A DNA stretch of 64,000 nucleotides from Moniliophthora roreri (taxonomy: Eukaryota; Basidiomycota; Agaricomycetes; Agaricales; Marasmiaceae). Within the stretch, counting starts at the first letter, position 1, and each line of letters opens with the position of its first letter. The notes beneath the pieces were generated by a model, which saw only the letters and a list, made by a program, of their open reading frames with translations, was not told the origin of the DNA and did no database searches. The DNA is taken from contig LATX02000202.1 of NCBI GenBank assembly GCA_001466705.2, forward strand, positions 434,001 to 498,000, written 5' to 3'. Below, in pieces: positions 15,391 through 57,575 of this stretch. The translations under genes were made by a program, and so were the position numbers.

Positions 15391-16066
15391 TTATGACTTA
15401 TGGAACGAACTTCCATACTCTCCACGTTGAGTGGTAGGAGCAGGAGGCGCAGGCAGAATGATTGATGACCAATTTACTGCTTCTAAGGGCTGTCTCAGTT
15501 CAACCTCCAAACGGTATTGGAAATCGGTTTCCATGAGCCTCTATCATGGGGTGTTAGTATAAGTGAAACATGGCGCGAGGAGAAAAATCATACGAGAATA
15601 TCGCATTCGAGGTCCTCGGCATTCATGTACCAAGCGACGAGGTCTGGCACCAGGTTGGGGTGAAAGCCGAGGTAGACTTTCCACAGGGAGCGTGTTCCAA
15701 AGTCTCCGTATCGGAGTTGGGAAGCTCTCCTCTTTAATCTATATAATAAGGATATCAGAAACGATTACACAGAGAAGATGACAGGACGGTGCACTCTATG
15801 CGCATACGCGACAAATCCTCGAGCTCATATGCAAAGTGAAGTAATGATACACTTGAGCGTGCGTCGGCATAAACACTGTCGACCTCCTTCTCCTTCGTAT
15901 TCAGTTCCGCCAAGGTCAGGCATGGGTACTGTGATCGAAGATAAGGCCACAGTGTAACTGTGACGAGGGTTGAGAGGGCGAATAGACCACAGGCGATGTA
16001 TCCCTTTGTGAGCAAAGAACTCTGGGTAGAAGGTAGTATGTTCGGACTTCCTGTGAGAGCGAGCAT
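15391..16066 (-). CDS. YPC-GFHP family membrane protein, copy 2
   Basis: Function unknown. Exons 16066-15795, 15738-15594 and 15540-15391 join to 188 residues plus stop. The transmembrane helix lies at about residues 22-42, followed directly by SQYPCLTLAEL and a Lys/Glu helix. Exon 2 carries LKRRASQ, LWKVYLGFHPNLVPD and CDIL at the donor. Exon 3 starts with RLMETDFQYRLEVELRQ, the family's heptad-like stretch, and ends in a proline-rich tail. A tactaac-like branch point precedes exon 3. It is one of the best-preserved members and more like copies 1 and 16 than the neighbouring group. Confidence 0.85.
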
Positions 16067-17660
16067 TGAGAAATTAACGTAGTACTATGAACGAGAAAAA
16101 CATACTAGAGCTGAGTTTATATGTGCGGTATAGCTTGATATGCATCTATGGTGCATATCGATCACCATATGGCATACGGTTGCCTCGAGGACCTGTGTAC
16201 AGTGCCATCCGATGGACGGTTAGCACTTTAGTGTGCGTGGAACCACCCGGAAACGCTTGTGAGAGAATGTAAAAGGAGCCTGAGATAAACCCGTTCCTGA
16301 GCTTGCAAACGTCCAAATGCCCGGGAGAGGCCTGCTGCGTTTCTGTGTGTTCGTCTGAAAAGGATATAGTACGGGGTGTGTGTATAGCAATGCATGTAAA
16401 CGGTACCGGAGGGAGTAATGACAGGCCTGCCGAGTCTAAAACAGGAACAAACTCGATATTTTACCCAGAAGCACGGTATCATGATACGTCATTCAAATTG
16501 TGCCATCCTAACCGCGTACGGGCAAGGTGCCGGTATATGGGTTTGGGGCATATGTAGGGCTTCGTCAGAAGTGAGTTGATAACAAGTCAATCCGATTAGG
16601 TACTAGAACGGAGTGAGTAGACAAATGAAAAGGGGATGACTTGATCACGCACAAGAATGGCTACGCAAACAGCAGAATCCCTGGTGACGGTCCAATTCCC
16701 TCCGGATTGTAGACGTGCGAGGTCCAAGTATTCGGGGCAGGCGCGGATATTCCTCTGGTTTTGCAAATCCTATTCAGTATCAGATTACTCCGTGCACTGG
16801 AGCAGAGTGAGTGTATAGAACAGGAAAGAGCCGGATTACGCACGAGAATAATATCGGCCAAAAATCAGCTGGCATTTCCTACGAGCCCTCCAAAATGTCC
16901 TCCAGCAGAAAGCTTCCCAAGAAGTGATGAACCTTCGATGGGTGCGCAAGCTATAGAAAAGGAAGTCCGTACTCGTTCAGAAAATCAAAGACAGATTGAC
17001 GCACTCGTTTCACGCCATTTTTCCTGACGACTCTCTCTTTTCCTTCATCTTTGCCCGATGATACGAGCTCTGCACACCCGAGAATTTGATGTCAAGAAGT
17101 CAGGCATGAGATGATACGAGTCCTGCCCAAGAAGCTTGAAGTCCTGCGTCAATGAGGGCAGTGACAGAACGAGAAAGAGCATCATTGTGGCTGTGCAGAA
17201 CCAGAGTTGATGAACGTGTCGATCATCGAGAGAAAAAGTAACTGGTACATTCTTAGCGTAAGATACATTAAATAGCAAAGCAAGCCATAGTAAATAATAC
17301 TCCAAGACATTTGCGATACATGGAGAGATTCGAGAGAAACAGACACTAGATGTACATGTGACATAACGGAGTAGTCAACGATGAAGAAAGGTATCATGGC
17401 TTGAATACAATGAGATGGATATACTCAGAGGAACAACGATCATAATGAGGGGTATAAAATGCTCAGTCTACTCTGGAGGATGGAGGCCGTAAACGTATGT
17501 GTACCACGCAAGCGATCTGGCACGAGCCGACACTAAAAAACATATCTTCTCCACACCAATGACGGGGGAAATGAGGATTCATACATGGACGATCTTCATC
17601 AAACGGCTGTCCATGATGGCCTTCGGCGTTGGTGACGACCTGCAATATATCAGCGCAATA
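16067..17660. other. Island spacer with exon-2-end relics
   Basis: No intact gene. Around 16645 and 16845 the minus strand reads an open segment ending in (I/A)ILV followed by gtgcgt, the same ending seen where exon 2 of the YPC-GFHP copies meets its intron. I read these as short relics of family-related exons. The rest shows nothing recognisable. Confidence 0.35.
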
Positions 17661-19260
17661 TCAGCATACATTTGCAGCATTCGGGAAAGGAAACGAACGG
17701 CAGATAGTCCTGAGCATACTGCAAAAACCAGTGGATGAACGTCCTGGATATGAGGTGCCATTTGATACGTTCGGCGTGGTAGCACTGGAGCCAGCGGGAA
17801 TGGTACATTGGACACTTGAATCGAGGCGACGTTGGGCAATGAATTCAATAATGTGCTATCTCAGCGAATTAGCTAAACGAACAAAGCTCGGGGACCAGGA
17901 ACGCACGAGAATATCTCGTTCAAGAGTCTCCGTATCCTTATTCCAGTTGACAATGTCAGATACCAACTTCGGATGAAAGCCAAAATAGATTCTCCAGATT
18001 GAAGATGATGTTACGTCGAGCTGTAGCGATTTCATACGTATCTGCGAGGCTCGCTTCTTCAAGCTATTGTTTACGCTTGTCAATGATCACCACTCAGAGA
18101 ATGAAGAGGTACACCTACTTGAATCGCCTCCGGGCGATATCCTCTAGCTTAGATCCATAGAGAAGCAGATCTTCGGCTTTCAGGGTGCGGGTGTAGGCAT
18201 TGTCGAGGTTCTCTTCCTTCTTATTCATCTCCTGCAAGGTGAGGCAGGGGTAGCGACACCGAAGATAAAGAGACATTGTACTAATGAAGAGGGCCAAGGT
18301 TACAAAGAGTCCGTAACCGAGATAATCAGAGGAAATAAGAATCCCATCTGGAGAAATGGATTCGTCGGCTGTGGGGATGTACATTGAGAGATCGAGGTTC
18401 TCTTCCTGAGGAATCAAGACGTACCAATGCCGTGCTTTTATGTAGGTCAGAGGTCGATTAGCTTCCCGCGTTCCAAGTACAACATTCGCGTAACTCGGAT
18501 GTCGGCCCAAAAGGCGACGTGCCTAACAGATCTAGAAAGAAACAGCATACCAAGTCAATCTAGCTGAGATCATCATTGTCAGAGATAATGAGATGAAAGC
18601 TGTGTATCATGTTTGCCTCGAGATTTCATAAGCTTACCTTTTAGTCTAAATGTCCGCCAACATTACTTCATCCTGGTGGGTAAATCCACATTTGGACGGC
18701 AGCTAGTGTCGGAAACCCGTGCCGATCCACGCCCAAGTGACAAGTGTGTTGACAGTGTTTTGAGGCTCAAGGTTATCATCAATTGAAGTCCAACCTCAAA
18801 CACTGTGGTAGTTCGGGTCATCGGGAATCTCCCTCACGTACGTGTAAAACACAAGTATATCCTTGTACCTGAAATGAACAGTGGTTTGTGGAGGAGATAT
18901 TCCGCGTTCGTAGAGGCCTGTGCGAACCTATACGTTAGGTTCGGTACAAAGTACCGACCCGAAACATACGGGGTAACTTGAAGTGGGGCGTGTCTCACGA
19001 CACACAGATCCACGGTATATAATAACTGAGAGTCAGAACTTCCACGGTCTACCACCAATACGTCGCGATTGGCAGAAACTCTTCGTACTGCGTTGAAAAG
19101 ATACTTGGAGCCGACTCTGAGGGCAAGCCTTGAGAAAAATAACAACAGCTTCGGCGAGATTTGATAACATACCAAAGGCCATCCCTGATGCACCAGTGAT
19201 CCTCCCGCGGAATGTTGACGTCAAGTAGCAACAAGATCTGGACGACTCCCGCTGTCATGA
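17560..19260. repeat. Segmental duplication block A, left copy
   Basis: Copy 3 and about 700 bp beyond its 5' side match 30120-31690 almost continuously. The shared sequence includes non-coding landmarks such as aacagtggtttgtggagg and ggttcggtacaaagtaccg. Small indels separate the two. The homology beyond the gene shows that a segment, not just a transcript, was duplicated. Confidence 0.8.
17661..18384 (-). CDS. YPC-GFHP family membrane protein, copy 3
   Basis: Function unknown. Exons 18384-18119, 18063-17907 and 17855-17661 give 205 residues. The N-terminus MYIPTADESIS is followed by a transmembrane helix (YGLFVTLALFISTMSLYL), then RYPCLTLQEMNKKE and LYGSKLEDIARRR. Exon 2 has LKKRASQIRMKSL, SIWRIYFGFHPKLVSD and ERDIL. 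Exon 3 encodes HIIEFIAQRRLDSS and a Ser/Thr/Pro-rich tail. The frame is open upstream to a Met at 18510, so a longer N-terminus is possible. It is a near-duplicate of copy 6 (30184-30904) and part of a duplicated block. Confidence 0.8.
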
Positions 19261-20343: not shown

Positions 20344-21171
20344 TCAGTCTGCCCCGGGACTTATGGTAGTATCAGTAACCGCACGTGTATTCCGATACTT
20401 AGCATGAACCATTCTGACTTCTGTGTCGGTGGCGGTGCTGTGCTGAAATGAAACGTTTGAGTGAGCTGATGAGCAGTCCAATGCCGGAGGCGTACCTTCC
20501 CTATAATGATGACTCGTCGATGGAAAGGGTATAATAGGCGTCACTGGCGGCGGAGGTGGGAGAACACGACTCGCTGCAATATCTCGCCTACTGATCTCGG
20601 CATCGCATTGCTGTTGGGTATCATGCTCAACAATGACCTGTAACATCCCGGTATAAATGAGCCAAAGAGAAAATAGTGAAGAAGTTACAGGGAACATACC
20701 ACAATATCCCGCTGCAGAGAGGCTGCAGCGTTGTACCACCGTACGATGTCCGGAGCCAGCTCAATGTGCAATCCAAGGTAGACCTGCCAGATCGAAGATG
20801 CTGATAGAAGTCGAATTTCGGATGCATATCTCTTCAAGCTAGAGATGCCGAGGTCAGTCCTGTAAAGGCCCGAGAAAATACATGTCATCGACGTACCAAA
20901 GTTTTGTCCGGGTAATATCATCCAAATCATGTCCATAGAGGTAGCCCTTTTCTACGGCTTCATTGAAAGCATCTTCTAGTTTTTCTTGAGCGATCTTCAA
21001 TTCCGAGAGGGTAATGCAAGGGTAGATACGTCGAAGGCAGCGGTAAAGTGCAAAAGCAAAGATGGTGAGAGATAGATAGATGACGGCGGCGGGGTCAGGT
21101 GCTACCTCGGAGATAGCCGCCAGCCACCCGATGTCCGTGGATTCGTATTCTTGGAGGTCTTTGTGGGCCAT
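20344..21171 (-). CDS. YPC-GFHP family membrane protein, copy 4
   Basis: Function unknown. Exons 21171-20897, 20838-20700 and 20637-20344 give 235 residues if the last exon is read to its stop. The helix (VIYLSLTIFAFALYRCL) precedes RRIYPCITLSELK and an acidic helix ending LYGHDLDDITRTKL. Exon 2 has LKRYASEIRLLS, SIWQVYLGLHIELAPDIV and QRDIV. Exon 3 has VIVEHDTQQQCDAEISRRD followed by a run of prolines and a Ser/Thr tail. A further splice near 20490 is possible, so the C-terminus is uncertain. It is related to copy 8. Confidence 0.8.
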
Positions 21172-23570: not shown

Positions 23571-23574
23571 GGGT

Positions 23575-23790: not shown

Positions 23791-24203
23791 GCGAGGCGGA
23801 AGGATATGAGAGCTTGGGATTGGCGAGTTTGAAGACACCATGATGACGGAACAAGGAAAAGAGGTTTATTAATGAAACTCGGACCCACGTTTGACGGCCA
23901 CGAGGTATCAGACACGCATGCACTAATTTACATCTCAAGAGTTTCTGGACAGCAAAGTAGATAGCAAGGAAAGACGTATACAACGGAGATAGCAGTTCAG
24001 AAGAAAAGCAGCAGTATTTGACACCAATCCGATAATAGATGGAACTCCGATAGAATAAGATGAGGTAAAAAGAAAAGCATATGGCCCAGAAAATGATATG
24101 GCATGTTCATTCAGACCCTTGAACGGGTTGCGAGGAGGTAGTAGTACCCTGGACATTGGGAAAGGCATTTGGTCGTCGATGACGATGCCGAGCTGTGGTG
24201 CAT

Positions 24204-24924
24204 TCACTTAGCAGCGTTCAAACACAGTGAATTGGATAGCACACCTCCTACACGAGTCTGATTAGCCGAAGGAGGATTCATGGACATCATTGCAGTTGCA
24301 GATGTAGATGCGGTGGGGATCTGAGCCGCTGCGTAAACCTTTTCTCGCCGACTGATTTCAGTATCGCAATGATGTTGTTTGTCGTGTTCTACAAGGATCT
24401 GTCAGGTTGAAGTGTCAATTAGTAAATGAATAGTAGAAGAATCTACAGATAACACACCAGAATATCCCGACGAAGCTTCTCTGCTGTTGCATACCATCGG
24501 ATGATATCTGGCATGAGCCTAACATGAAGCCCAAGATAATCCTCCCAGATCGATGGAGGATTTTGAAGACTTTGAAAGCGAATTTGTGAAGCTGTTTTCT
24601 TCACGCTAGAAGCAGTGTAGTCAGTATCGGAACATTTGAAAGAATATGTCGTGCTCACCGAAATCTTGTCAGTTCAACAAGCTCCAGCTCGCGGCCATAC
24701 AGGCAGCCATTATCAACAGCAGTCCTGAAGGCGCGGTCTAGGCCTGATTCTGCTTTGTTTAAATCGGAAAGAGTGAGGCATGGGTAGACGAGTCGGAGGA
24801 CGCAGTAAAGGGCAATGGCAAGGACAAACGTGACGATGGCTGTCCTTCGGTCAGGTGATTCGGAGATAGCCGAGACCAAGTCAGCGGGTTTTGGGTCGTC
24901 TTGTAATGTCAAAGTGGTATGCAT
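24204..24924 (-). CDS. YPC-GFHP family membrane protein, copy 5
   Basis: Function unknown. Exons 24924-24659, 24605-24458 and 24398-24204 give 202 residues. The N-terminus MHTTLTLQDDPKPADLVSAI precedes a helix (IVTFVLAIALYCVL), then RLVYPCLTLSDLNKAE and LYGRELELVELTRFR. Exon 2 has VKKTASQIRFQSL, SIWEDYLGLH, MPDIIRWYATAEKLRRDIL. Exon 3 has ILVEHDKQHHCDTEISRRE and an Ala/Thr/Ser tail. An alternative splice from about 24232 into a downstream open exon at 24207 is possible. It is the intact relative of the broken copies 7 and 9, so it serves as their reference. Confidence 0.83.
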
Positions 24925-30119: not shown

Positions 30120-31690
30120 GTTTCGTACATGTACGATCTTCATCAAACGGCCGCCGATGAGGACCTGCAATATCAACGCAATATTAGCGAAGGTTCGCAG
30201 TAATGGGGCAAAGAAACGAACGACAGATATTCCTGAGCATACCGCAGAAAGTGCATGAACGTGATTCTCGACATGAGGTGTCCTTGGATATGTTCGGCGC
30301 GGTGACAGGGTCAGCGGGAGTAGTCAATTGGACGTTGGAATCGAGGCGACGTTGTGCAACGAATTCAATAATGTGCTATCTCAACGAATTAGCTAAACGA
30401 ACAAAGCTCGGAAACCAGGAACGCACGAGGATATCTCGTTCAAGAGTCTCCGTATCCTTATTCCAATTGACAATGTCAGATACCAACTTTGGGTGAAAGC
30501 CAAGATAGATTCTCCAGATTGAAGACGATGTTACGTCGAGCTGTAGCGATTTCATACGTATCTGCGAGGCTCGCTTCTTCAAGCTATTATTTACGCTTGT
30601 CAATGATCAACACTCAGAGAATGAAAACGTACACGTACTTGAATCGCCTCCGGGCGATATCCTCCAGCTTAGATCCGTAGAGAAGTAGATCTTCGGCTTT
30701 CAGAGTGCGGGTGTAGGCGTTGTCGAGGCCCTCTTCCTTCTTGTTCATCTCCTGCAAGGTGAGGCAGGGGTAGCGACACCGAAGATAAAGAGACACTGCA
30801 CTAATGAAGAGGACAAAGATTGCAAAGAAACCGTAGCCGAGATAATCAGAGGAAACTGGAATCTCATCTGGGGAAATGGATTCGTCGGCTGTGGGGATGT
30901 ACATTGAGAGATTGAGGTCCTCTTTCTGAGGAATTAAGACGTACCAATGCCGTGCTTTTATGTATGTCAGAGGTCGATTAGCTTCCCGCGCTCCAAGTAC
31001 AACATTCGCGTAACTCGGATGTCGGTCCAAAAGGTGCCGTGCCTATAGATCTCGAAAGAAATAGTAGAACCAAGTCAATCTCGCTGCAACATCGTGTCAA
31101 CGATAATGGCAGAAAAGCTGTGTATCAATGTCGATCAACTTACTCCATTGTGATGGGAAATCCACAGTAGGCGTGGTCAGTGTCGGATTCTCGTGCCGAT
31201 GCACGACTGGCGTATTGATATGTTGCGCCAAGGCTCAAGGTCGCCATCAACTGAAGTCCGACCTCAAACACTGCGGCGGTAATCCGGGCCATTGGGTATC
31301 ACGTACGTTAACACAAGTATACCATTCTTGTAGCTGGTAGTTGAAATGAACAGTGGTTTGTGGAGGCCTGTGCGAACGTGTACTTAGGTTCGGTACAAAG
31401 TACCGACCCAACAAATATGGTGTGGCTTGATGGGTGTGGAGGTGTAAAACAATTGGGATCTTAACTTAATTGCACAGTCTATCGACACTACGCTGCCTTG
31501 ACAAGATGAACTCTGACGGTGTGCATTGAGCAACAACGCAATTTTAGCGAGAGTCGATAATGTACCAAAGACCACCTCTGGTATAACAGTGATTCTCCTG
31601 CGAAATGGTGTTATAGCAGATCCGGAGGCTACTCCCGATATCATGGGCCACAACATTCGAGCCATAACAGCGTCGTGGACTTCTTGGAAT
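30120..31690. repeat. Segmental duplication block A, right copy
   Basis: Right partner of 17560-19260, about 12.5 kb away in the same orientation. It contains copy 6 and matching upstream non-coding sequence. The order of family members after it (8, 9) mirrors the order after the left block (4, 5). Confidence 0.8.
30184..30904 (-). CDS. YPC-GFHP family membrane protein, copy 6
   Basis: Function unknown. Exon 1 is 30904-30639, exon 2 lies within 30603-30427 and exon 3 is 30375-30184. The protein is close to copy 3 over the first two exons (MYIPTADESIS, YGFFAIFVLFISAVSLYL, RYPCLTLQEMNKKE, LKKRASQIRMKSL, IYLGFHPKLVSD, ERDIL). Exon 3 begins HIIEFVAQRRLDSN and then diverges more strongly from copy 3 and ends three bases from a different stop. 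The faster change in exon 3 than in exons 1-2 is visible directly. The frame is open upstream to 31030. Confidence 0.8.
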
Positions 31691-32220: not shown

Positions 32221-32689
32221 CATAGATGTTAATCACGAATATACCTGACAAGGCAGCTGTGAGGGCTTGGGCTTGGCGAGCACCACGATGATGGAACAAG
32301 GCAAAGAGGCTACTCGGACGCAAGTCGGAGTTTTACGACCACGAGGCTTCAGGTACGCGGAAAACACAGACGCACTAACATCTTAGGAGACTCTGGATAG
32401 CAAAGTGAATTACAAGGGAAAACATATGCAATGGAGCGACAGTAGTAGCAAAATAAAAGCCATGGAGTACTCGACAACAGATCGACAATGGAAAACATCT
32501 CACGAAGCTCCGACAATGAGACAAATTGAATGTGACCCGGAAAATGACATGGTAAGCTCATTCAATCTCTTGAGTTGGAGTGCGAGGAGATAGTGATACC
32601 CTGGACATCGAGAAAGGTATTTGGTCGTCGATGACGACGACGAGCTATGACGGAATTACTTAGCAGCGTTTATATACAGTGAACTGGAT

Positions 32690-33994
32690 GGCGCACCTTC
32701 ACGAGTCTGACCAGCCGAGGGAAGGTTCATAGGCACCATTGCAGTTGCAGATGTAGATGCGATGGGAATCTGAGTCGTTGCGTAAACGTTTTCTCGCCGA
32801 CTGATTTCAGTATTCGCAATGGTGTTGTTTGTCGTGTTCTACAAGGATCTGTCAAGTTGAAGTATCAATTAGTAAATGTATAGTAGAAGAATTCACGGAT
32901 AACACACCAGAATATCTCGATGAAGCTTCTCTGCTGTTGCATACCATCGGATGATATCTGGCATGAGCCCGACGTAAAGTACGAAATAATCCTTCCAGAT
33001 AGATGGAGGATTCTGAAGACTTTGAAAGCGAATTTATGAAGCATTTTCTTCACGCTAGAAGCGACATGGTCAATATCGGCACATTGAAAAGAATATGTCG
33101 TGCTCACCGGAATCTTGTCAGTTCAACGGTCTCCAGCTTGCGCCCTATTATCAACAGCAGTCTTAAAGGTGCTGTCTGTGCTTGATTCTACTTTGGATCG
33201 GAAAAAGTGAGACATGGATGGACAAGTGGGAGGACGCAGTAAAGGGCGAGAGTGATGACGATGGCTGCTGTCCTTCGGTCAGGTGATTCGGAGACAGCCG
33301 AGACCAAGTCCGGCGTTTAACGTGGAACAGGGGGGAGGGAAATTTTTTTTTTGTACATGGGGTCGAATTTTTTTTTAAGGACCGTCGCGGTGAACCAACC
33401 AACCACTGACTACCATATATGGAAGGTAGTTCACATGACATCACCGGCGCTAAGTAGCAAGCACCTGACTAGCGCTGGTCCTCTTCCCCCTTCGCATTAG
33501 CTAGGTTCAGCGAAGTGCGAGCACAATATACCGAAGTCTGCAGTAGAATGTTTCAAACTGTTTGTAAGGTTCATCTACATTATATTCTAGGTACGGGAGC
33601 CCAAGCAAGCGATATCTGCTAAGATCTAAGGATAGTATGTTTATCCAGGGTGTAAGTTAGTTCAAGAAGGCATATAATGTAACCCTATTATGGAGAACTC
33701 CCAGTCCTATACAGCCGAACCACCACAAACCCTTAAAATACCTGTGAGTGAGCCCCAAGGACCATGGGTGGGCAGGAAACTGATCTGGACCAGCATCCAA
33801 AAGGCATATAGGAGCAAATTTGAGTCTTTCTGCTATGAAGGTGGTCATAAAAGAACCTTTGGTTACTGAGAAAGTGTTCAAAATTTGAAAAAAAAATTGG
33901 CTCAAAAATTTTTTTAAGCCGGCCATCGGGCAACCAACCAACCGTCCCGGTGTTCCGGAACCACGGCCCGCCTCCCCCCTGACGTGGAATGCAT
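32690..33994 (-). pseudogene. YPC-GFHP family copy 7, disrupted by a hAT-like element
   Basis: Clear relative of copy 5, but dead. A 654-bp transposon-like insertion (33328-33981) separates the initial ATG (33994-33992) from the rest of exon 1. Next to it exon 1 has lost bases and carries a stop after the LTFSD segment. Exon 2 (about 33055-32908) has a net one-base loss in the region matching KKTASQ, which throws the rest out of frame. Exon 3 has an inserted base that creates a stop shortly after the EHDKQHHC segment. The order of events is unknown. Confidence 0.85.
33328..33981. mobile_element. hAT-like non-autonomous element (MITE), 654 bp
   Basis: The ends are perfect 11-bp inverted repeats (CAGGGGGGAGG) and both sides carry the same 8-bp direct string ACGTGGAA (33320-33327 and 33982-33989). 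An 8-bp target-site duplication with CAG-type ends is the hallmark of the hAT superfamily. Subterminal ggttggttggtt strings also face each other. No transposase is encoded. The element sits a few codons into YPC-GFHP copy 7. Confidence 0.85.
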
Positions 33995-34730: not shown

Positions 34731-35410
34731 TTAGGTGAGTTTCATGAGGCTTACTAGCAGCAACATACCTTCTCCATAATGACAAATCGTCGACGAAAAG
34801 GGTATCGTGGGCATCACTGGTAACATAGATGGGGGAGCACGAGTCGCCGCGTTCTTCCTGATCTCGGTATTACATTGGTACTGGGTTTCTTGATCAACGA
34901 TAATCTGTGAAAGCACCAGTATAAATGAGCGGGGAAATAGCGACAAAGTTTCAGAAAACATACCAGAACATCCCGCTGCAACCTCTCTGCTGTGTTGTAC
35001 CACCGTATGATCTCCGAAACCAGCTGAACATGAAATCCAACGTAGACCTGGCAAATTGAAGATCTCGATCGAAGCTGAATTTCAGATGCCCATTCCTTCA
35101 GGCTTGAAAAACAGTGGTCAGTCCTAGAAGAACACGAGATAATATAATAAACACACCGAAGCCTTGCCTGTGTTTTATGCTCCAATTCAAGTCCATAGAG
35201 GGAGCCTTTTTCCGCTGCATCGTTCAAAGTATCTTCTAGCTTTGTCACTGCCCTGTTGAGTTCTTCAAGGGTGAGGCAAGGGTAGAAACGCCGAAGATAG
35301 CGGTAAAATGCAAGAAAGATGATGACGACAACAACGGTTCGGTCAGGTGCCACCCCGGGGACAGCCGCCCAAAGACCGAAGGCGGTGGATTCGGTTTCGT
35401 TGCAATCCAT
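34731..35410 (-). CDS. YPC-GFHP family membrane protein, copy 8
   Basis: Function unknown. Exons 35410-35157, 35102-34964 and 34904-34731 give 188 residues. The N-terminus MDCNETESTAFGLWAAVPG leads into the helix (VVVVIIFLAFYRYL), then RRFYPCLTLEELNRA and LYGLELEHKTQARLR. Exon 2 has LKEWASEIQLRS, VYVGFHVQLVSEIIRWYNTAERLQ and RDVL. Exon 3 has IIVDQETQYQCNTEIRKN followed by a short tail. The exon-2 acceptor is a tcaag, less pyrimidine-rich than in the others. Related to copy 4. A 198-codon frame without the first splice is the unspliced reading. Confidence 0.8.
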
Positions 35411-36639
35411 GAATCCTATACAGAAATCGAAGTGCTAATCTCTGGAAGACTGGCAATATACATCCTCACCTGGGGGCTGCTTTTATAGGATGAATCTCAT
35501 TGGCTCTCCAGCACAGTTGATATCTGTTTCGCCGAAGTGGCTTCGGTGCGGCACTTGGCATTTCCGTCCCGAAGGCGATCGGACAGCCATTCCCGTCTCG
35601 TGAACCTCAACGGGACTTTTGGCCTCCAGCCAATTTACCTGAGAACTTTTTTAGCAGTTGTAAAAGTTGAACTTGAATATTGTCATTGTCTAAATAACTC
35701 GGGTTGTGCAATATAGTGTAATGAGGAAGGAGGAAAGACAACATACCGGGGACGGACAACACGGTGTCCGTTTGGCACTTAGGGGGGCGGCGCAAGGAGA
35801 GGAGAAATGGAAGGTGACCAAGCTGTTGCGTGTATACGATGGTAAAACACTGCTTCGGGTTCCTAGCATGCATGAACCGAGTGTTTCTGCGCACTGATAC
35901 CTATGATTCATCAAGAGACCAAAATCGTTGCCACTGAAGTACGACGACCTGCATACAGCTAATATCAGAGCCCGAACGGATATCCGGCGTACAGGAGATC
36001 ACTACGGTTGAACCACAGATAACAGCAACGAAGACCGGTACATCTCCGTTTTTCGACAGATGTAAAATGGAACCTATCCTAAGCCGTATCCGTCCCGCCG
36101 GGATTGTACACAGCATGAGGAACGTAGGCCACGAGGCCTCGAAAGGAAGCGAAGGTCTCCCAGCGAAGATATGGATGGTAATGACTCATAAGCAGTGAGG
36201 ATGGCACACTCTCCTCAGAACAGCGGCATAGGTCCATGTTTGAACGTCGAAGACCATTTCCGTGTCAATAATCACAGAAGTTTGGTGATATCTGATGATC
36301 ACTCGTTGCATTGCCATGGGGTAAGCATTCTTTCACTACGTCTTCCGGAAGTGAATCGCGCACGAGAATCTTGTAGGAATCGACACTCGATCTCCAGATC
36401 CATAGACAAGGAAAACCATACGCAATGGAGCGATAGTAACAGAAAAAAAGTAAAGGAGTACTCAACAGCTCGACAATGAAAACGTATTTCATGAATATTG
36501 ACACAATAGGATGAGGGATGAGGAACGAATAGGTCTTGTAGAATGATATGGCATGCTCGTTCTACCTCTAAACGGCAGTAGTATCCTGGACGTTGAGCAT
36601 TTGGCCGTCGATGTCGATGCCGGACTATGATGGAATTAG

Positions 36640-37363
36640 TTAGCAGCGTCTATATACAGTGAGCTGGATAGCACACCTCCTACGCGAGTCTGACCAGCGG
36701 AAGGAAGATTCACAGGTACTATTGTAGTTGCCGATGCAGATGCAGTGGGGATCTGAGTCGTTGCGTAAACCTTTTCTCGCCAACTGATTTCAGTATCGCA
36801 ATGATGTTGTTTGTCGTGTCCTACGAGGATCTGTCAGGTTGAAGTATCAATTAGTAAATGAATAGTAAAAGAATTTACGGATAACACACCAGAATATCCC
36901 GGTGAAGCTTCTCTGCTGTTGAATACCATCAGATAATATCTGGCATGAGCCCAACATGAAATCCAAGACAGTCCTTCCAGATCGATGGAGGATTTTGAAG
37001 ACTTTGAAAGCGAATTTATGAAGCTGTTTTCTTCACGCTAGAAGCAGTGTGGTTAGTATCGGAACATTTGAAAGAATATGTCGTGCTCACCGAAATCTTG
37101 TCAGTTCAACGAGCTCCAGCTCGCGGCCGTACAGGCAGCCATTATCAACAGCAGTCCTGAAGGTGCGGTCTAGGCCTGATTCTGCTTTGTTTAAATCGGA
37201 GAGAGTGAAGCATGGGTAGACAAGTCGGAGGACGCAGTAAAGGGGCAAGGACGAGAGTGACGACGATGGCTGCTGTCCTGCGGTCAGGTGGTTCGGAGAT
37301 AGCCGAGACTCGGACCAAGTCGGCGGGTTTTGGGTCTTGTAATGTCAAAGTGGTACGATGCAT
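36640..37363 (-). pseudogene. YPC-GFHP family copy 9, inactivated
   Basis: Relative of copy 5 with several lesions. In exon 1 five bases are missing inside the transmembrane helix, so the YPC motif falls out of frame (the frame instead reads LLRPPTCLPM). Exon 2 contains two premature stops where copy 5 has codons CAA and CGA (TAA in the segment matching TASQI, TGA in the segment matching PDIIRW). Both are C-to-T changes on the coding strand. Exon 3 is similar to that of copy 5. It belongs to the right-hand duplicated block. Confidence 0.85.
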
Positions 37364-39081: not shown

Positions 39082-40063
39082 GAGTGGTACTAAATAGATT
39101 TCATTGTAGAATAGCATTTGGACAGCAGTACAAAAAAAACATGCGACACGTACAAAGCAGAAGGAGGCAGATGAATAGAAGATACAGAGTGGTACTCTAA
39201 TAACAAAGAGGTATATTGATAGCCTAAAAGAAGCGTCCTCAGACTTCAATATGCCTACGAGAGTCGGATAATAGGAGCAAATGGCTTAGTGATGTTCGTA
39301 TTATACGGGAAGACGCGCACCTTATGCACGAGCTTGGCTGGTAGACGAAGAAGATGCTGTGGGCAATATTGGAGACGCGATGGAAGGACAATTCGCTGCG
39401 TTTCCTCGCCTGTTCAGTTCGATGTCGTATCGGTGTTGGTTGTCATCCTCGACAATAGCCTATTAGAGTTCAAACATTATGAGCACAGTAAAGGTAGAGC
39501 ATTTCCAAAGAACGTACCAGGATATCCCATCGAAGTTTCTCTGCATTGTTGCTCCATTCAATGATCTCTGATAACAGTTCGGGATGGAATCCTAGGTAAG
39601 TCCTCCAGATGGAAGAGGAATTCTGAAGACTCCTGGAGCGAATTTCCGAGGCCTTTCTCTTCAAGCTAGAGTGGATCGAGTTAACCTCTGCGCAACGGAA
39701 GAGACGTCAAGAGCGCACCGAAGCCTTGTCTCCGTAATGAGGTCCCTATCACGTCCATATGATAGAGAGCCGGACTCGACAGCGTTGTCGAAGGTAGCAT
39801 CCAGGTTTGATTCTGCCGTCTCCAATTCGAAAAGAGTGAGGCAGGGATAAAGAAGTCGGAGTAGTCGGTAAAGGGCAAAAGCAGAAACGGGGGTGATAAT
39901 AGCACCGATGACGACAGCACCGTGACCATCTTCGGCAATGGCCGTAACCAATTCCACCGCGGGATGGGGGCTCATCGTCAAGAACGCGATTGTCTGCAGA
40001 GAAAAGCAATGAAGTGGAACGAAGAACTAAAGAACAGAAGAAAGTGAGGAAGAAAGTAATGGT
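39082..40063. repeat. Inverted repeat, left arm (982 bp)
   Basis: This arm is the exact reverse complement of 40187-41168: every mirrored open frame has the same length and the same translation, and positions add to 80250 throughout. The arms hold YPC-GFHP copies 10 and 11 head to head. The spacer is 40064-40186 (123 bp). Confidence 0.95.
39322..39975 (-). CDS. YPC-GFHP family membrane protein, copy 10
   Basis: Function unknown. Identical in sequence to copy 11, on the other arm of the palindrome. Three exons mirror those of copy 11 and encode 180 residues: a short N-terminus MSPHPAVELVTAIAED, a helix at about 19-38, YPCLTLFELE, then exon 2 with LKRKASEIRSRSL, IWRTYLGFHPELLSEIIEW and RWDIL, and exon 3 AIVEDDNQHRYDIELNRRGN with a Ser/Thr/Ala tail ending ARA. 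Compared with copy 13 the tail stops earlier. Confidence 0.85.
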
Positions 40064-40186
40064 TGAGCATCTTTATCGCCTAAATACGCAGTCAGAGATG
40101 GGAGAGATCAAAAAACGTAACATAGGGCAGGCGGCGTTGATTGACACCAGGAATACCAGGAATACTGACGGTGATGAAGGTGAGCC
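40064..40186. other. Spacer of the 982-bp palindrome
   Basis: Non-repeated 123 bp between the two arms. With about 90 bp of arm on each side it forms the 299-bp gap between the divergent start codons of copies 10 and 11, so any promoter of either gene must lie here or in the arm ends. Confidence 0.8.
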
Positions 40187-41168
40187 ACCATTACTTTCTT
40201 CCTCACTTTCTTCTGTTCTTTAGTTCTTCGTTCCACTTCATTGCTTTTCTCTGCAGACAATCGCGTTCTTGACGATGAGCCCCCATCCCGCGGTGGAATT
40301 GGTTACGGCCATTGCCGAAGATGGTCACGGTGCTGTCGTCATCGGTGCTATTATCACCCCCGTTTCTGCTTTTGCCCTTTACCGACTACTCCGACTTCTT
40401 TATCCCTGCCTCACTCTTTTCGAATTGGAGACGGCAGAATCAAACCTGGATGCTACCTTCGACAACGCTGTCGAGTCCGGCTCTCTATCATATGGACGTG
40501 ATAGGGACCTCATTACGGAGACAAGGCTTCGGTGCGCTCTTGACGTCTCTTCCGTTGCGCAGAGGTTAACTCGATCCACTCTAGCTTGAAGAGAAAGGCC
40601 TCGGAAATTCGCTCCAGGAGTCTTCAGAATTCCTCTTCCATCTGGAGGACTTACCTAGGATTCCATCCCGAACTGTTATCAGAGATCATTGAATGGAGCA
40701 ACAATGCAGAGAAACTTCGATGGGATATCCTGGTACGTTCTTTGGAAATGCTCTACCTTTACTGTGCTCATAATGTTTGAACTCTAATAGGCTATTGTCG
40801 AGGATGACAACCAACACCGATACGACATCGAACTGAACAGGCGAGGAAACGCAGCGAATTGTCCTTCCATCGCGTCTCCAATATTGCCCACAGCATCTTC
40901 TTCGTCTACCAGCCAAGCTCGTGCATAAGGTGCGCGTCTTCCCGTATAATACGAACATCACTAAGCCATTTGCTCCTATTATCCGACTCTCGTAGGCATA
41001 TTGAAGTCTGAGGACGCTTCTTTTAGGCTATCAATATACCTCTTTGTTATTAGAGTACCACTCTGTATCTTCTATTCATCTGCCTCCTTCTGCTTTGTAC
41101 GTGTCGCATGTTTTTTTTGTACTGCTGTCCAAATGCTATTCTACAATGAAATCTATTTAGTACCACTC
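40187..41168. repeat. Inverted repeat, right arm (982 bp)
   Basis: Exact reverse complement of 39082-40063. Beyond 41168 (right) and before 39082 (left) the similarity stops sharply, inside the shared string taccactc. Confidence 0.95.
40275..40928 (+). CDS. YPC-GFHP family membrane protein, copy 11
   Basis: Function unknown. Exons 40275-40531, 40585-40732 and 40791-40928 give 180 residues. Intron 1 is phase 2 (R split as CG/C) and intron 2 phase 0. The membrane helix (about 19-38) is followed by RLLYPCLTLFELE, an acidic helical stretch and the RDLITETRLR link. Exon 2 is the GFHPELL core. Exon 3 begins AIVEDDNQHRYDIELNRR. The Cys right after the helix is a possible acylation site (inference). 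It is identical to copy 10 and very close to copy 13. This member best defines the gene model for the family. Confidence 0.88.
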
Positions 41169-42330: not shown

Positions 42331-42771
42331 AAGTTTGAACAGGTCTTCATGAGGGTGAAAAGTGGATTATGGAACGCTCAACATGAAAGCAACTCAACAT
42401 GCTGATCGTGGTACGAAGCAAAGTGGTGTCGTGGCCTAGCGCAGTCCAGCTTGGTGACCCTGGCATTCATCGAGCATAAGAATAGGTTCATTCTGCATTG
42501 GCATACAGTACATATCAAAGCGCGAATCGATAGCGAAACCGAAAACACCTAATAAAAAGCAGATTCGAAGAGATAATTGACTGTTTGATGTAATACCGCG
42601 AAGAATAGAAAGATGAATGCACGCAAGACGGTTGTGGTCGAGATGGAGGGCGTGAAGTCATCGGTATTCCGTATGTCCGGCAGTAATAGTACCCATGTAG
42701 ATTTCGGGCGAGGTGCTTGGTCTTCGATGCCGATGTCGACGTCAAGCTGTAAGAAAATGGGTCGGTGATGT

Positions 42772-43475
42772 TCATGAGAAATCCGTTAGTAGAGACACAC
42801 CCGAATACATCTGGCCACTTTGCGGGAGCTGTTCCTCGGGCCTCGTTGCAGACGGTGGATAAATAGTCGTGGTTGCTGCATCCTCCCGCCTACTCAGTTC
42901 GGCATTGCATTGGTATTGGCTATCGTGTTGGACAGCAATTTGGTGATTATGAGGAGTAGTCAGTGAAGTTAAGCAGGAGAACCTGTCAGTAGACACACGA
43001 GGATATCGCGTTGTAGCCTTTCTGCAGCGGTATACCACTGAACGATATCTGGAACCAATTCGATGTCAATTCCAATAAAATTCTTCCAGATCGAGTTGTT
43101 TAATTGGAATTTTTCGCGTCTTTCTGCAGCTCTTTTCCTCAAGCTGAAGGGGCAAGACCAGATTCAGTATTTCTAAGGTAAAAAGGACATGAGATGCTCA
43201 CCGAAGCTTGGACTGCGTTATGATCTCTAGTTTGTGTCCATACAAGCAACCATTATTGATCGCATCACTGAAAGTACTTTGTACGGTTTTTTCTGCCTTG
43301 TCTAGTTCGGAGACGGTGAGGCAAGGGTAGAGCAGTCGAACGAATCGACAAAGGGCAACGGCAAGGATGAGAGTGATGATGTCAGCTGTTGTTCGGTCAG
43401 GTGCTTCGGAAATAGCCGACGCTAATTCCGTAGATTTGTGGTCCAGGTCGTTCCAACTGGTAAGGTGTCTCGAGA
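42772..43475 (-). pseudogene. YPC-GFHP family copy 12, probably inactive
   Basis: The core is well preserved: exon 1 has ELASAISEAPDRTTAD, a helix, RLLYPCLTVSELDKAE and LYGHKLEIITQSKLR; exon 2 has LRKRAAERREKF, SIWKNFIGIDIELVPD and QRDIL; exon 3 has IAVQHDSQYQCNAELSRRE. However, no ATG is in frame with exon 1 before an upstream stop, and the acceptor before exon 3 reads aa instead of ag. Retaining intron 2 would keep the frame open, so a changed product cannot be excluded. An upstream exon carrying the start is also possible. Confidence 0.7.
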
Positions 43476-45740: not shown

Positions 45741-46415
45741 TCACACAGAAAGACGCGTACCTCCTGCACGAGCGTGGCTGGTAGATGAAGAAGATGCTGT
45801 GGGCAATATTGGAGGTGCAATGGAAGGGCGATTCACTGCGTTTCCTCGCCTGTTCAGTTCGATGTCGTATCGGTGTTGGTTGTCATCCTCGACAATAGCC
45901 TATTAGAGTTCAAATATTATGAGCACAGTAAAGGTAGAGCATTTCCAAAGAACGTAACAGGATATCCCGTCGAAGTTTCTCTGCATCGTTGCTCCATTCG
46001 ATGATCTCCGATAACAATTCGGGATGGAATCCTAGGTAAGTCCTCCAGATGGAAGAGGAATTCTGAAGACTCCTGGAGCGAATTTCCGAGGCCTTTCTCT
46101 TCAAGCTGGGGTGGATCGAGTTAGCCTCTGCGCAACGGAATAGACGTCGAGAGCGCACCGAAGCCTTGCCCGTCTGATGAGCTCTTGTTGATAGCCATAT
46201 AGTGAACTCGACTTGACAGCGTTGTCGAAGACAACATCCAGGCTCGATTCTGCGCTCTCTAATTCAAAAAGAGTGAGGCAGGGATAGATAAGTCGGAGTA
46301 GTCGGTAAAGGGCAAAAGCAAGAACGAAGGTGACAATAGCACCGATGACGACAGCAACACCGTGACCATCTTCGGCAATGGCTGTAACCAATTCTGCCGC
46401 GTGATTGGGACTCAT
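45741..46415 (-). pseudogene. YPC-GFHP family copy 13, splice donor lost
   Basis: Very similar to copies 10 and 11. Exon 1 (46415-46159) and exon 2 (46105 to about 45958) are open and encode MSPNHAAELVTAIAEDG, a helix, RLIYPCLTLFELE, LKRKASEIRSRSL and LGFHPELLSEIIEW. At the end of exon 2 the donor that is GTACGT in copies 10 and 11 reads TTACGT. If intron 2 is retained the protein ends early after LYLYCAHNI; a donor one base earlier would shift the frame. The third exon (AIVEDDNQHRYDIE) is still open. It may be a truncated expressed version or a new pseudogene. Confidence 0.7.
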
Positions 46416-49523: not shown

Positions 49524-50076
49524 TTACGCCGGAACGACATTGATGTTGACGCTCGAGGTATCGTACACCACATTATCCAGAGTCTCAACCTAAGTCCAAG
49601 AATTGAGTTCCACAAGTCCACGAGGTTAAAACGAGTCGGACTGACCTCTACTGCAGCGAGATGGTACGACCTAAGTACCGCCTGACCAGCTTTAAAGTCG
49701 ATTGGAATCTTCACCGTAAAGTCCTCCGTTTGTTTAGAGGAGGCATTAGGGGCTTTGGGGTTGTATCTCCCTTTGTACAGAATTTGCGTGATGTTCTGGT
49801 TGGTATCAGACTTGGTCGAGATATCGAGCACGATGCCGAGGTGGGTGACCTTGCCGTCTGGTGAGTCAATGAACCGTACTTGCTGTAAAGTATATATCGT
49901 GTAAGAATATTGAACTTGGATAGAAAACGAGAACGTACATCTGTTTCAACACGGATGGTGACTCGACCTCCAATAGGAACATTTGCCCCATTCTTAGGCT
50001 GAGCTATTGTGGCTTTCTGAGCAAAAGAGACTGCTGAGAATGCGAAAGCAGCAAGAAGAGCGTTGATGAACTTCAT
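49524..50076 (-). CDS. Small secreted beta-sandwich-like protein 2
   Basis: Exons 50076-49939, 49882-49646 and 49589-49524 give 146 residues. The signal peptide MKFINALLAAFAFSAVSFAQ is followed by KATIAQPKNGANVPIGGRV, TIRVETD at the intron, THLGIVLDIST, ILYKGRYNPK, a FTVKIPIDFKAGQAV segment and a YDTSSVNINVVPA end. It is a diverged paralogue of the gene at 48081, in opposite orientation, with the same exon phases and the same first-exon length. No Cys occurs in the mature part, so no disulphides are expected. Role unknown. Confidence 0.82.
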
Positions 50077-50701: not shown

Positions 50702-51486
50702 TCAAAAGTAATCATTGTTCAATCCTAGAGCTGGCCTTCGGAGACGATGTCGACCTACGAATATCAGAATCCACAGTTTCTGGGGAAAAAAGATAACAGC
50801 CGTACCTTCAGTATTGCTATTGCGACCTGGACGGCTATTAAACGCATTCGGCTCGATGAAACCATCCATTGGAATTATGAATCTGCAGGAACTTGTCGAG
50901 TGGTTGCATAGGCTAGGACATATCTGCAATTCACTTTCATAACGACGTTTAGTCTCCTGTTCGACGATTGTCTAGGATATACTATGGCTTCAGTCGGAGA
51001 TTCACGTCAAAAAAAAAAAAAAACGCGTTACACACGATAATACGTTGCCGAAGCTGCTCCGCTTCTCTATACCAGATGACGATGTCCTTGACGAGCTTTG
51101 GATGGAAGCCGAGAATGATTTTCCAGTTGGAAGTTCCCGATGCTCTGTCCATCTCGATTTCTTTCGTTCGGATTTCGGATGCCATGAGCTGCACTCTGTT
51201 GGCTTCTTGGTTAGCTGATAGGTTATAAAGATGACGACGTGACATACACAGTTCTTTCCCGAGGAATGCCTTCCAACTCGAGCAGACAGGATACCGTGTT
51301 GTTTGTTCTGGCAGCCTTGTAGATTTCTTCTAGTATTCGCTCCATCTCGCTCATCTCCGATGGTTTAATGCATGGGTACATGCGGCGGAGGTAGCGGAGA
51401 GCAAGGACTATGAAGGTGGCGAAGATAGCAAATACGACTGCAGGTACTGCTTGAGGGAAATTGCAAGACAATTCTACGATGTCCAT
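50702..51486 (-). CDS. YPC-GFHP family membrane protein, copy 14
   Basis: Function unknown; a diverged member outside the main island. Exons 51486-51248, 51195-51036 and 50971-50702 give 222 residues with the family's phases. Helix at about 13-31 (VPAVVFAIFATFIVLAL), then RYLRRMYPCIKPSEM and LLELEGIPRERT. Exon 2 starts VQLMASEIRTKEIEM and has NWKIILGFHPKLVKDIVIWY and RQRII. Exon 3 starts TIVEQETKRRYESELQ and has a long tail. The correct acceptor of intron 1 (caacag) keeps phase; an earlier ag would not. Intron 2 holds a 15-bp A/T run. The frame is open to an upstream Met at 51588. Confidence 0.78.
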
Positions 51487-51588
51487 TGTGGCGTTGAGAT
51501 CGCTCTTTGAGTTTTTTAAATAGAAATATCCGAACGCTGCGTTAGCTAGCACCTTTTTTCCCAAGGTCAAAAATTTTTTTATATCCAT

Positions 51589-53631: not shown

Positions 53632-55143
53632 ATGTTCACACCACCACCGTCACCGTTTCCTATGATGACTGGGGAGAAGGAGAGGGATCCGATGGGCGAG
53701 GCTGGGGAAGCGTTGTTGGTGCAAGCAGAGTGCCGTGGGGTCGAGCAGCAGCCGGAAGAGGTGTTGACAGTTGGTTTGGAGGCAGTGACCAAGAGAAAAA
53801 GACGGACAGCGACACTCCGAACCCTCAGCGCACTCCTTATTCCCCTCATTCTCATCGGAATCACCGCGTCAACAGGCTGGATATCACATCCAGTCGCATT
53901 CGACGTTTTTCTAGCTCAACATCCTCAAAACAGCAGCACTTTATTGGGGCTGCACAAGCCTCATTCGGAACCAGAACCTGGTGTACATCTACACAGACGA
54001 GCTAATGATAGCTCTTCGTCATCATTGTCACCGACGTCGACAATACCAGCAACGGCTCAACCCATACCGACGGTGCCTTCTTCCGCATCACCGCCTACGT
54101 TACCTACCCCGTTCCCACAGCCATGGGACTCTGACGTTGGCACAAACTATACGAACAGGGGGTGTTATGATTTTATGCTCAACATCACGAACACGGTTGC
54201 ATTCAGAAGTTGTAGGAGTTTTGGGGCGTTGGTTGGGTTGGGTGGTGAGGCGTTCCAAAAGGTATGTTTTCCTTCCCAGTCTTCTTTTAGGGTATCTACC
54301 CTGGAACCTATTTTTGATTGAATGAGAATGGTGACGTCTGCTCTCGATTCACATAGGCACACTCGTCTCTCGAGTCATTGAACAACATCATTTGGGGCAC
54401 ATGCAACACCAACACCTCACAAGACGATTGTATTGATAACATGAGCTGGTTTGCCAGCGCAATCAACACAGAGGATACCTGTGCCCAAGAGTTGCGAGAG
54501 GGAAATGCAGCCGTCAGGGGGATGCTGATCGGTGAGTACACTATCTCTCTGTCGTCGTTTCTGCAATCATTGACCCACCACTCGTCTAGCACTTGAATCG
54601 TACCCATTAACACGCAGCCTCGGATGTATGGTTGACCCATCGACAAACACGTACTGCTACATCAACGCAGTTAGGAATTCCAATCCGAGTGATTTATATG
54701 CCTATCAAGTGATCTTTGGTGTGTTGTTTTGGGGCACCTTCGTCAATTGTTCCTAACCCCCCCTTGCACAGGTACACGATTCCCGACAAACTCTCCTGCA
54801 ACGTGTTCAGGCTGCTCTAAACAAGTACTGGGTGCGTTGGCAGCTGCTATCGAAGATGGTGCGGGGCCGGATAAAGGTTCGTCTCTACGCTTTCGTCTAC
54901 TACCCATCGTTCTAACTTGGTGGGGGGGTATCGTAAATAGAACTCCTCGGCTCAGAATCCCTCTCAACGCTCTCCTCTGCATATCCATCAGCAGCCAATT
55001 CAGCAATAGGCACATGTGGAAAAGGTTTCGCTCAAATCGCTGGCACAGCCAATTCAGCATTGACTTTGGACATTGGAACCGGAATAGGAAGGATTGTATG
55101 GACATTGGTGCTTTTTGCTTTGGGTTGGTTATCCTTACGGTAG
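53632..55143 (+). CDS. DUF7729-type Cys-rich surface protein
   Basis: Five exons, 53632-54261, 54357-54531, 54590-54718, 54772-54876 and 54941-55143, give 413 residues. An N-terminal basic stretch and a hydrophobic helix (about 64-84, LSALLIPLILIGITASTGW) make it a probable signal anchor. A Ser/Thr/Pro-rich linker follows, then a Cys-rich domain with FRSCRSFGAL, CIDNMSWFASAI, a CYINAVRNSNPSDLYAYQV segment and TCSGCSKQVL. This Cys spacing and the NPSD-Y block are what I know from fungal DUF7729 proteins. The C-terminus is hydrophobic (RIVWTLVLFALGWLSL), consistent with a GPI anchor or second helix. Function unknown. Confidence 0.8.
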
Positions 55144-55533: not shown

Positions 55534-55849
55534 CCATTTGTATATCCGTGTCAATATGCTTCGGCTTCACTTGCAGGCTATCTATCACGCAGGGGTTCTC
55601 GGGCGTTGGGGGAGGGCGCTCGAGGGCGGACCATGACAAATCAAAACTGAACCTTCTCATTGTAATTTCCCGAACTTTATCGAGACACCATACAAAGTCG
55701 TCCAAGGTTAAATAAAACCGTGCACCGCTCGCGTCTCTATCCAAGCGAGAGCCCGCAGCGGTATAGAGATTCTGCCTAGGGGAGACTAGTCAAGCGCAAG
55801 CGTGAGAAGGTTTGTGGAGGTCTTTTTTGACTAGCGCTTCAACGTTCAG

Positions 55850-56350
55850 CGTTCAACCCCCTCGTCTACGCTTTCTTCTACTTTCTGATTTTTGTCCGTC
55901 CTGCGCTTTGACGTCTCATCCGATTTCAACGTCATTGCATCGCCGTTTCGGAATTGAACATGAAAGAAAAGATGATCATGAGTCAATTATATGGAGATGC
56001 TGTTGAGAAAGACAGCTTTGTAGGGTATAGGGTATGGCGAGGATTGGGTGCGTCGACTTGTTCTCATCTCATCATTCCTGTTCTTATGTTTGTATGTTTC
56101 TGTAGGCTAAAGGCCAGAGCTTCTCAGAATTCGGAACCTAGACATGACAGTTGATTTATCTCGGGCTTTCGCCGTGACCTTGAGCTCAGCGTTTAGTACA
56201 AGAATGCCGATAGCCTCGAAAGAAAGTGTTAATCGATAATCGATAAATATCTTCCCAGGTGTCTAATGCCTCCGCTAGTCCAACATCCACTGCCGTATGG
56301 AACTTCGATGGCGTAATAGGGGTCAGAGTCTCGTCCATCGTGTTTATCGT
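55850..56350 (+). pseudogene. YPC-GFHP family, decayed duplicate of copy 15
   Basis: Parallels copy 15 piece by piece: a segment like its exon 1 (ctgcgctttg, acgtctcatccga, gaaagacagctttg), one like the exon 2 start (ctaaaggccagagcttctcag) and one like exon 3 (gtccaacatc, ccgtatgga, gggtcag). The YPC motif is destroyed, stops interrupt exon 1, and the GFHP core is missing. About 1 kb separates it from copy 15, so it is a dead tandem duplicate. Confidence 0.75.
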
Positions 56351-56881
56351 GTTTTTATGTAATGCTCATCTGCACAGTAGGCCCCTTGAAGCTTGAAGCT
56401 CCATTGTCTTAATCGATCTTTTGTTGAGTTGCTCTTCTCTTGTCCTAACAACAATTATATACGTATCTGAAGTTTCATTTGCAGGGCTCCTCAACTATAT
56501 ACCGACATCCAACTCATACATACGGACATAGGTATGGAGACTCAGTCGGATTACGACAGTTCATCCCAGAGAACCAAGGCGCATGGGAATGATAGTGGCA
56601 CAAGTAGTCCACATAAGCGTAGTATCACCGCCTGCACAGCGAGTGGGGACAGTTTTGGTTGCGCCCTGACTTCCATGAAGAAGGTCCATAACAGTAATCA
56701 GAAGATGTTTGACAGGCATCAGAAATCTGATAAATTCGATTGCAGGTCGTGAGAACCAGTATATAACGAACAACCATCTGTAGTCGTTACATGTCCACTC
56801 CGTTCGGGCCCCGGCAGATGCTGCCTCTATTCGAGATATGGTATAAGAGCACTCGCAAGTGAGTATCTCCACAAAGTTCCA

Positions 56882-57575
56882 ATGTCTACTCATCCGGGTT
56901 TTCTTTATTCCTCAGATAATTCTTCTCACCAGCTCGTCGACGCTGTACTTGGCGAGTCGGAATCCAACGCTCTCCCAACCTACGGCCTTCTCAAGTTCAC
57001 AATCTCGACCTTCATCGCCGCTGCGCTTTGGCATCTCATCCGATTGCGGTACCCATGCATCACCACTGCAGGACTCAACTCGAAGGAAAAGAAGGTCGAC
57101 GAACTGTACGAAGATGCTATTGAAAAAGATAGCTTCACCGGGCCTACGCTGGAGGATATAACCAGGAGGCGAATTGAGCGCGTGTTGCTCCCTTTCCATA
57201 AATGCTCACCTCTTATTGTCAATGTGACTTATGCAGACTAAAAGCCAAAGCTTCCCAGATCCGGACGAGAAGCCTAGCGATGGCGTCGTCAATTTGGTTG
57301 ATCTACTTTGACTTTCACCCTAAATTGGTCGACGATCTCAGCAAATGGTACAAGGCTGCAGATATCCTTGAGCGGGATATTCAGGTGTGTCGAAACTGGA
57401 AATACATTCATTCTTGTAATTGATAGTTTCATTTTACTAGTCCAACATTGAATCCGATATCCAACATCGTTACCGTATGGAGCTTCAAAGGCGCACTGGG
57501 GGTCAGGATCGTTCTCCGAATGCGTCTGCTGGCACGTCCGTCGTATCACCGGCCTCAGGCAACGCTTGTGCCTAA
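56882..57575 (+). CDS. YPC-GFHP family membrane protein, copy 15
   Basis: Function unknown. Exons 56882-57177, 57237-57384 and 57441-57575 give 192 residues. The helix (YGLLKFTISTFIAAALWHLI) is followed by RLRYPCITTAGLNSKEKK, an acidic helix and LEDITRRRIE. Exon 2 has LKAKASQIRTRSL, IWLIYFDFHPKLVDDLSKWY and ERDIQ; note FDFHP instead of LGFHP. Exon 3 has SNIESDIQHRYRMELQRR and a Ser/Gly-rich tail. By alignment of the exon ends, intron 1 would have a gc donor (GA/gcgcgt) where other copies have gt. If this is not spliced, the frame stays open but loses the core. Confidence 0.78.

Follow-up and report, generated by a model that had tools for sequence, protein, structure and literature searches.

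We report that a 64,000-nt stretch of the Moniliophthora roreri genome (assembly GCA_001466705.2, contig LATX02000202.1, positions 434,001 to 498,000; hereafter the window, C102:434001-498000 in our contig numbering) carries many copies of a gene family, the YPC-GFHP family, named after two motifs of its short proteins. The splice layout of the family is conserved, its core is under selection, and its copies have been multiplied by duplication and thinned by decay. The reading that we tentatively favor, with a probability of roughly 40%, is that of a real, constrained, genome-wide nuclear family, duplicating segmentally and in tandem and thinned by loss, whose products act as signal-anchored membrane adaptors.

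Exon-specific profiles identified 16 copies bearing exon 2 in the window (>8 bits). With a fragment holding only exon 1 and a weak relic at 59584 the total comes to 18, the minimum number of copies or relics given in a first-pass annotation of this DNA. Six-frame motif scans repeatedly hit YPC and the LKRKASEIR...GFHP core, always in one order within a copy. Thirteen copies, including c13 and c15 with their odd splice sites, were spliced by hand and all follow one layout, with three-exon models of 162-235 residues. At least four copies are relics, among them those at 32.9, 36.9 and 43.1 kb, which have stops or have lost the ATG (the last also has the intron acceptor AA). The copies are listed below by window position; the ends of exon 4, an additional exon described further on, were counted by hand in c02, c03, c04 and c05.

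c01, 1459..2098, minus strand: exons 2098-1821, 1756-1600 and 1542-1459
c02, 15309..16066, minus strand: exons 16066-15795, 15738-15594 and 15540-15411; exon 4 at 15355-15309 (RHRHRRP)
c03, 17599..18384, minus strand: exons 18384-18119, 18063-17907 and 17855-17720; exon 4 at 17639-17599 (variant RHQRRRP)
c04, 20399..21171, minus strand: exons 21171-20897, 20838-20700 and 20637-20496; exon 4 at 20442-20399 (variant RHRHRSQ)
c05, 24107..24924, minus strand: exons 24924-24659, 24605-24458 and 24398-24245; exon 4 at 24192-24107 (RHRHRRP)
c06, 30184..30904, minus strand: three exons, near twin of c03; exon 4 not found
c07, 32600..33310, minus strand: relic of c05 type with a stop in exon 2 and no ATG; variant RRRHRRP at 32622-32642; outer limits approximate
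c08, 34731..35410, minus strand: three exons; intron 1 is 54 nt long and stop-free
c09, 36602..37340, minus strand: relic of c05 type with two stops in exon 2 and no ATG; RHRHRRP at 36602-36622; outer limits approximate
c10, 39322..39975, minus strand: three exons
c11, 40275..40928, plus strand: inverted copy of c10 with identical protein
c12, 42718..43386, minus strand: relic with no ATG and intron-2 acceptor AA; RHRHRRP at 42718-42738
c13, 45741..46415, minus strand: three exons; intron-2 donor TT
c14, 50702..51486, minus strand: exons 51486-51248, 51195-51036 and 50971-50806; exon 4 at 50754-50702 (variant RHRLRRP)
Exon-1-like fragment, 55864..56028, plus strand: 23 bits with the exon profile
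c15, 56882..57575, plus strand: three exons; first donor GC
c16, 59383..59598, minus strand: weak relic (YPSLT)
c17, 61223..61822, plus strand: three exons

The outer coordinates first proposed (15391, 57575 and 1459-2098) match three-exon models, but c02 with its fourth exon would run 15309-16066.

The 13 hand-spliced models have a phase-2 intron 1 and a phase-0 intron 2. A phase can be imposed by splicing by hand, so we also ran a test in which phase was left free: introns were picked by splice-site score, with the sole requirement that the exon frames join stop-free, in those of 50 core exons found genome-wide that have a good exon-1 or exon-3 partner. With nothing but splice-site scores to go by, 38 of the 39 copies testable at intron 1 came out in phase 2, and 20 of the 21 testable at intron 2 in phase 0. 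The conserved splice layout is real and does not stem from choices made in hand splicing.

The three-part phase 2/0 layout recognized at first pass stands, but for part of the family it is incomplete. In many copies the motif RHRHRRP lies 200-290 nt past exon 2, frequently in a different reading frame from exon 3, and the DNA before it allows a third intron in phase 1. We searched 15 window exon-3 regions for intron 3 with phase left free, on condition that the motif be reached with no more than two mismatches. Six gave solutions, with phase 1 the best in each: the intact copies c02, c03, c04, c05 and c14, which thus offer a fourth exon, and the relic c09. Poorer phase-0 solutions also exist in c02, c04 and c09, and the other nine regions yielded none in this motif-requiring search. 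Exon 3 itself contains the motif, or a variant of it, on contigs C128, C129 and C140, with no intervening intron. When one mismatch is allowed, RHRHRRP occurs 150-320 nt past exon 2 in 13 of the 50 copies and at a single other place in the 230,428 bases, searched on both strands; the expected zone makes up <2% of the searched sequence space. The tail, initially described as variable, is loose but not simply variable: a basic end of RHRHRRP type is present in part of the family, without being universal.

The core is under purifying selection. We fitted GY codon models (iqtree) to exon pieces from profile hits, because automatic models outside the window are uneven (doubtful GC donors, long introns, one stop); stop-bearing pieces, low scorers and identical duplicates were excluded. 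The ratio of nonsynonymous to synonymous rates (dN/dS, or omega) is 0.261 in exon 2 (39 stop-free rows of 52 codons; log-likelihood -3896.0 versus -4045.0 when omega is set to 1 and kappa left unchanged) and 0.487 in exon 1 (-5536.7 versus -5594.0 at omega 1). A dN/dS near 1 is rejected for exon 2, in keeping with the initial suggestion of selection rather than junk. In pairwise counts, which rest on the three-exon hand models, the cores of c03 and c06 are separated by 3 nonsynonymous and 11 synonymous changes, the parts before YPC by 10 and 4, and the tails of these models, where intron-3 sequence may be included, by 33 and 16.

The family extends well beyond the window. We scanned the genome (59.4 Mb in 154 contigs) by single-protein searches and then with exon profiles; profiles of exons 1, 2 and 3 were run on the window together with 19 further stretches, and the genome counts are lower bounds. 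Core exons number 50 (16 in the window, 34 outside; >8 bits) and lie on nine contigs (C1, C89, C96, C100, C102, C118, C128, C129 and C140). "Locally amplified", as the family was first described, is too narrow. A marginal single-protein match on C124 (E 0.0085) was dropped, as the exon profiles did not recover it. DUF6533, a basidiomycete family, matches 65 places in this genome and none in 14 control genomes, which fits a basidiomycete source. In a tree of 47 two-exon copies, contig and kinship are associated (16 changes against a mean of 26.3 in 200 shuffles), copies from C128, C140 and C102 are intermixed, and only 20 of 43 inner branches have good support; among window copies, c14 has the longest branch.

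Two sites suggest how copies arise. The copies c10 and c11 stand head to head in an inverted repeat (39082-40080 and 40170-41168) with arms of 999 nt and a spacer of 89 nt; its six mismatches all fall near the center, at the inner end, and the repeat stems either from a very recent inverted duplication or from a fold-back of the assembly. Immediately ahead of the window, a copy at C102:431.9-432.4 kb lies ~1.1 kb from an RPS6 fragment (C102:433527-433916), and within the window c01 lies ~1.4 kb from a long RPS6 exon (3546-4061, minus strand). With RPS6 sequence near a family copy in both places, a unit of host DNA was evidently duplicated. An assembly of two haplotypes is unsupported as an explanation, since RPS6, the one gene considered for this, has a single full-length match in the genome.

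Some individual loci are also worth recording. The relics L020 (C128:2.1-2.4 kb) and L025 (C129:163.4-163.8 kb) have zero-length tree branches, reflecting recent copying or assembly redundancy, and C128 starts with an exon-1 piece at base 14. L012 (C96:291.3-292.1 kb) is a lone, very diverged copy with exon order kept, perhaps the nearest to an old single-copy form.

We next consider the proteins themselves. An alignment of 12 window proteins (c11, identical to c10, was left out) has a mean column identity of 37%. Six positions are invariant (M1, Y47, P48, C49, S99 and S114 in c01 numbering) and 15 more nearly so, including K95, A98, I101, G121, H123, W133 and D143. The part after YPC, a predicted cytosolic helical module, runs from a charged helix through LKRKASEIR...W..YLGFHP.LV..DI..W...AE.L.RDI to IVE..Q.R. 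Of 47 copies, 45 retain the motif cysteine, 44 of them as P-C and one as YSC. We counted topology features in 37 models, 13 made by hand and 24 automatic, with c10 and c11 both included although they encode the same protein. YPC follows 0-7 residues after the end of the most hydrophobic stretch, a second hydrophobic stretch after YPC is absent in 36 of the 37, and lysine and arginine are richer in the 15 residues after the helix than in the 15 before it in 33. The window models and this count bear out the single membrane helix, YPC motif and conserved core seen at first pass. Since a single hydrophobic helix is followed by basic residues, we predict a single-pass, signal-anchored topology with the N-terminus out and the C-terminus in (N-out/C-in).

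Database comparisons support the label "unrecognised" in a defined sense: the family is not in Pfam and has no relative in the PDB, as judged from its sequences. For four window members, no Pfam family scored above its curated cut-off (three matches fell below, the best with 14.5 bits against 25.6), and a 12-row profile retrieved no PDB relative (best E 0.64). In viral contigs, 20 stretches fit a pattern and none was confirmed as a relative; nor was any of 48 stretches in prokaryote genomes, retrieved with a one-protein query that finds close relatives only. Unannotated Agaricomycete proteins of similar look may exist. Among the literature matches listed, titles and abstract openings contained no description of the family, nor did passages of PMC10949477 and PMC7674699. 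These small single-pass membrane proteins apparently form an undescribed family.

How might such a protein work? A short, mostly acidic N-terminus would cross the membrane and leave one helix inside it, and the basic flank and YPC motif would mark the cytosolic boundary. The remainder would form a cytosolic helical module followed by a loose tail, RHRHRRP-ended in part of the family. Such a protein could serve as a membrane-tethered adaptor whose conserved module binds a common partner or self-pairs, while each copy would owe its specificity to its tail and N-terminus; the YPC cysteine may be acylated, and the basic C-terminal end may contact lipid or an acidic partner. We infer the adaptor role, acylation, lipid contact and choice of membrane (plasma, endoplasmic reticulum (ER) or mitochondrial outer), and a cytosol-facing adaptor is our best guess at the role.

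Several observations weigh against this proposal. The charge bias is missing in 4 of the 37 models. The helical module is only suggested, because the structure model is weak and has no significant PDB match: AlphaFold on c08 gave helices only (mean predicted local distance difference test score, pLDDT, 62.8; predicted template modeling score, pTM, 0.37), from an input of exon 1, translated intron 1 and exon 2 in which the other copies aligned over exon 2 only, leaving one real sequence over exon 1, and Foldseek found no PDB match to this model at E <= 0.001 (best E 4.9). An RHRHRRP-like end was not found for c01, c06, c08, c10/c11, c13, c15 and c17, so the motif is not family-wide. Constraint is uneven across copy pairs, because the c10/c13 core shows 20 nonsynonymous and 14 synonymous changes (with exon-1 parts unequal in length; exon 2 alone has 2 and 3) and the c04/c08 whole-gene ratio is 0.71. 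Several copies have decayed. A partner gene beside the copies is unsupported: the 20 ORFs (open reading frames) scanned, of 96 beside copies outside the window, revealed no common neighbor and carry various domains.

Alternatively, the products of the same family could be signal-anchored in the outer membrane of mitochondria, in the manner of Tom20/OM45, and serve import, contact sites or organelle quality rather than act as adaptors at the surface or in signaling. Moderate hydrophobicity, a basic flank and a short N-terminus mark the signal anchors of that membrane, and the family has all three: the mean Kyte-Doolittle hydropathy of its helices is 1.35-2.99, some helices therefore being weak, basic residues follow directly, and the N-terminus is short. 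However, plasma-membrane or ER anchors fit the same features, and turnover as fast as that of this family would be unusual for mitochondrial housekeeping. We consider this placement unlikely.

Less probable again is that these are recognition, incompatibility or killer-type genes, with copies acting against cells or spores that lack matching ones. The many copies, several relics, faster-changing ends and segmental birth and loss would fit such a role, as would a NACHT-type NPHP3_N open frame (L011:7773-8999) ~2.5 kb from the C89 copy; yet the core is constrained rather than diversifying, and no such neighbor occurs among the other ORFs examined. A more specific proposal, to which we give little credence, is an unnamed basidiomycete recognition or killer family of ~50 loci with a shared cytosolic core and differing ends, whose balance of birth and death would be kept by copy-based sorting of cells or spores.

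Could the copies be mostly decaying, functionless duplicates that are alike because they are young? The relics in the window and the odd splice sites of c13 and c15 point that way. Pairs that include a relic show exon-2 changes (6 nonsynonymous and 4 synonymous in c05/c09; 11.5 and 9.5 in c05/c07) as well as stops, with dN/dS ratios still <1, as expected if decay is recent. The low omega of exon 2 holds over long divergences, however, and intron phases are conserved between copies at 32-45% identity. For the whole family decay is refuted, although it can hold for single copies; as a general account it is very improbable. A transposon-borne or selfish-element protein, already disfavored, is the least credible origin: the copies are dispersed, numerous and accompanied by relics, but they keep their introns, the duplicated stretch holds a piece of the ribosomal gene RPS6, and Pfam found no transposon domain in the four members or in 30 window ORFs, a single gag match just below cut-off (L025) being the only one among the 20 outside ORFs.

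The 30 window ORFs scanned, out of 208 of at least 80 aa, matched RPS6, DUF7729, Nis1 and Hpr_kinase_N, with one further match below cut-off. Nis1 is matched by an open frame at 48223-48576 (plus strand; 27.5 bits, cut-off 27) and DUF7729 by one at 53587-54318 (plus strand; 29.1 bits, cut-off 25). A 42-bp tandem repeat underlies a 565-aa minus-strand open frame (6948-8645), whose Hpr_kinase_N match (24.5 bits, cut-off 24) may be due to chance. An array of 21-bp tandem repeats lies at 2256-2444, and the stretches 48367-48534 and 49640-49801 are related at the protein level, in inverted orientation.

Taken together, our findings turn anonymous fungal DNA into a defined family, recognizable by phase-2 and phase-0 introns, a YPC membrane boundary, a core under constraint and, in some members, a phase-1 intron and a basic C-terminus. 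The family is larger and better defined than at first sight, the fourth exon of part of it being new. Gene callers may truncate or miss such short, intron-rich genes, and a family profile would make it possible to record their numbers in different mushrooms and relate these to lifestyle. A recognition role, if true, would give access to an aspect of basidiomycete biology that has been little explored.

Tom20/OM45 and LAT-type adaptors are examples of signal-anchored (N-out/C-in) single-pass proteins. The YPC-GFHP family resembles both in its short N-terminus, single helix, cytosolic basic residues and soluble part, and LAT-type adaptors also in the membrane-proximal cysteine; the resemblance is one of architecture, these being kinds of layout rather than families. 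Lineage-expanded orphan gene families are common in mushroom genomes, and the YPC-GFHP family is like them in its clusters, its birth and loss and its lack of a Pfam domain, but is set apart by a defined three- to four-exon layout, the YPC/GFHP core and a partial basic C-terminal motif. The wtf killers are likewise multi-copy, fast-changing membrane proteins with many relics, but they have several helices and paired poison and antidote products, as opposed to one helix here. Finally, Snowball (SNB1), which has seven predicted helices, belongs to a family of Agaricomycetes membrane proteins with four members in Coprinopsis cinerea (PMC10949477). Like the proteins of the YPC-GFHP family, it is a fungal membrane protein with paralogs, no domain of known function and an N-out/C-in orientation, but the family described here has one helix and ~50 loci.

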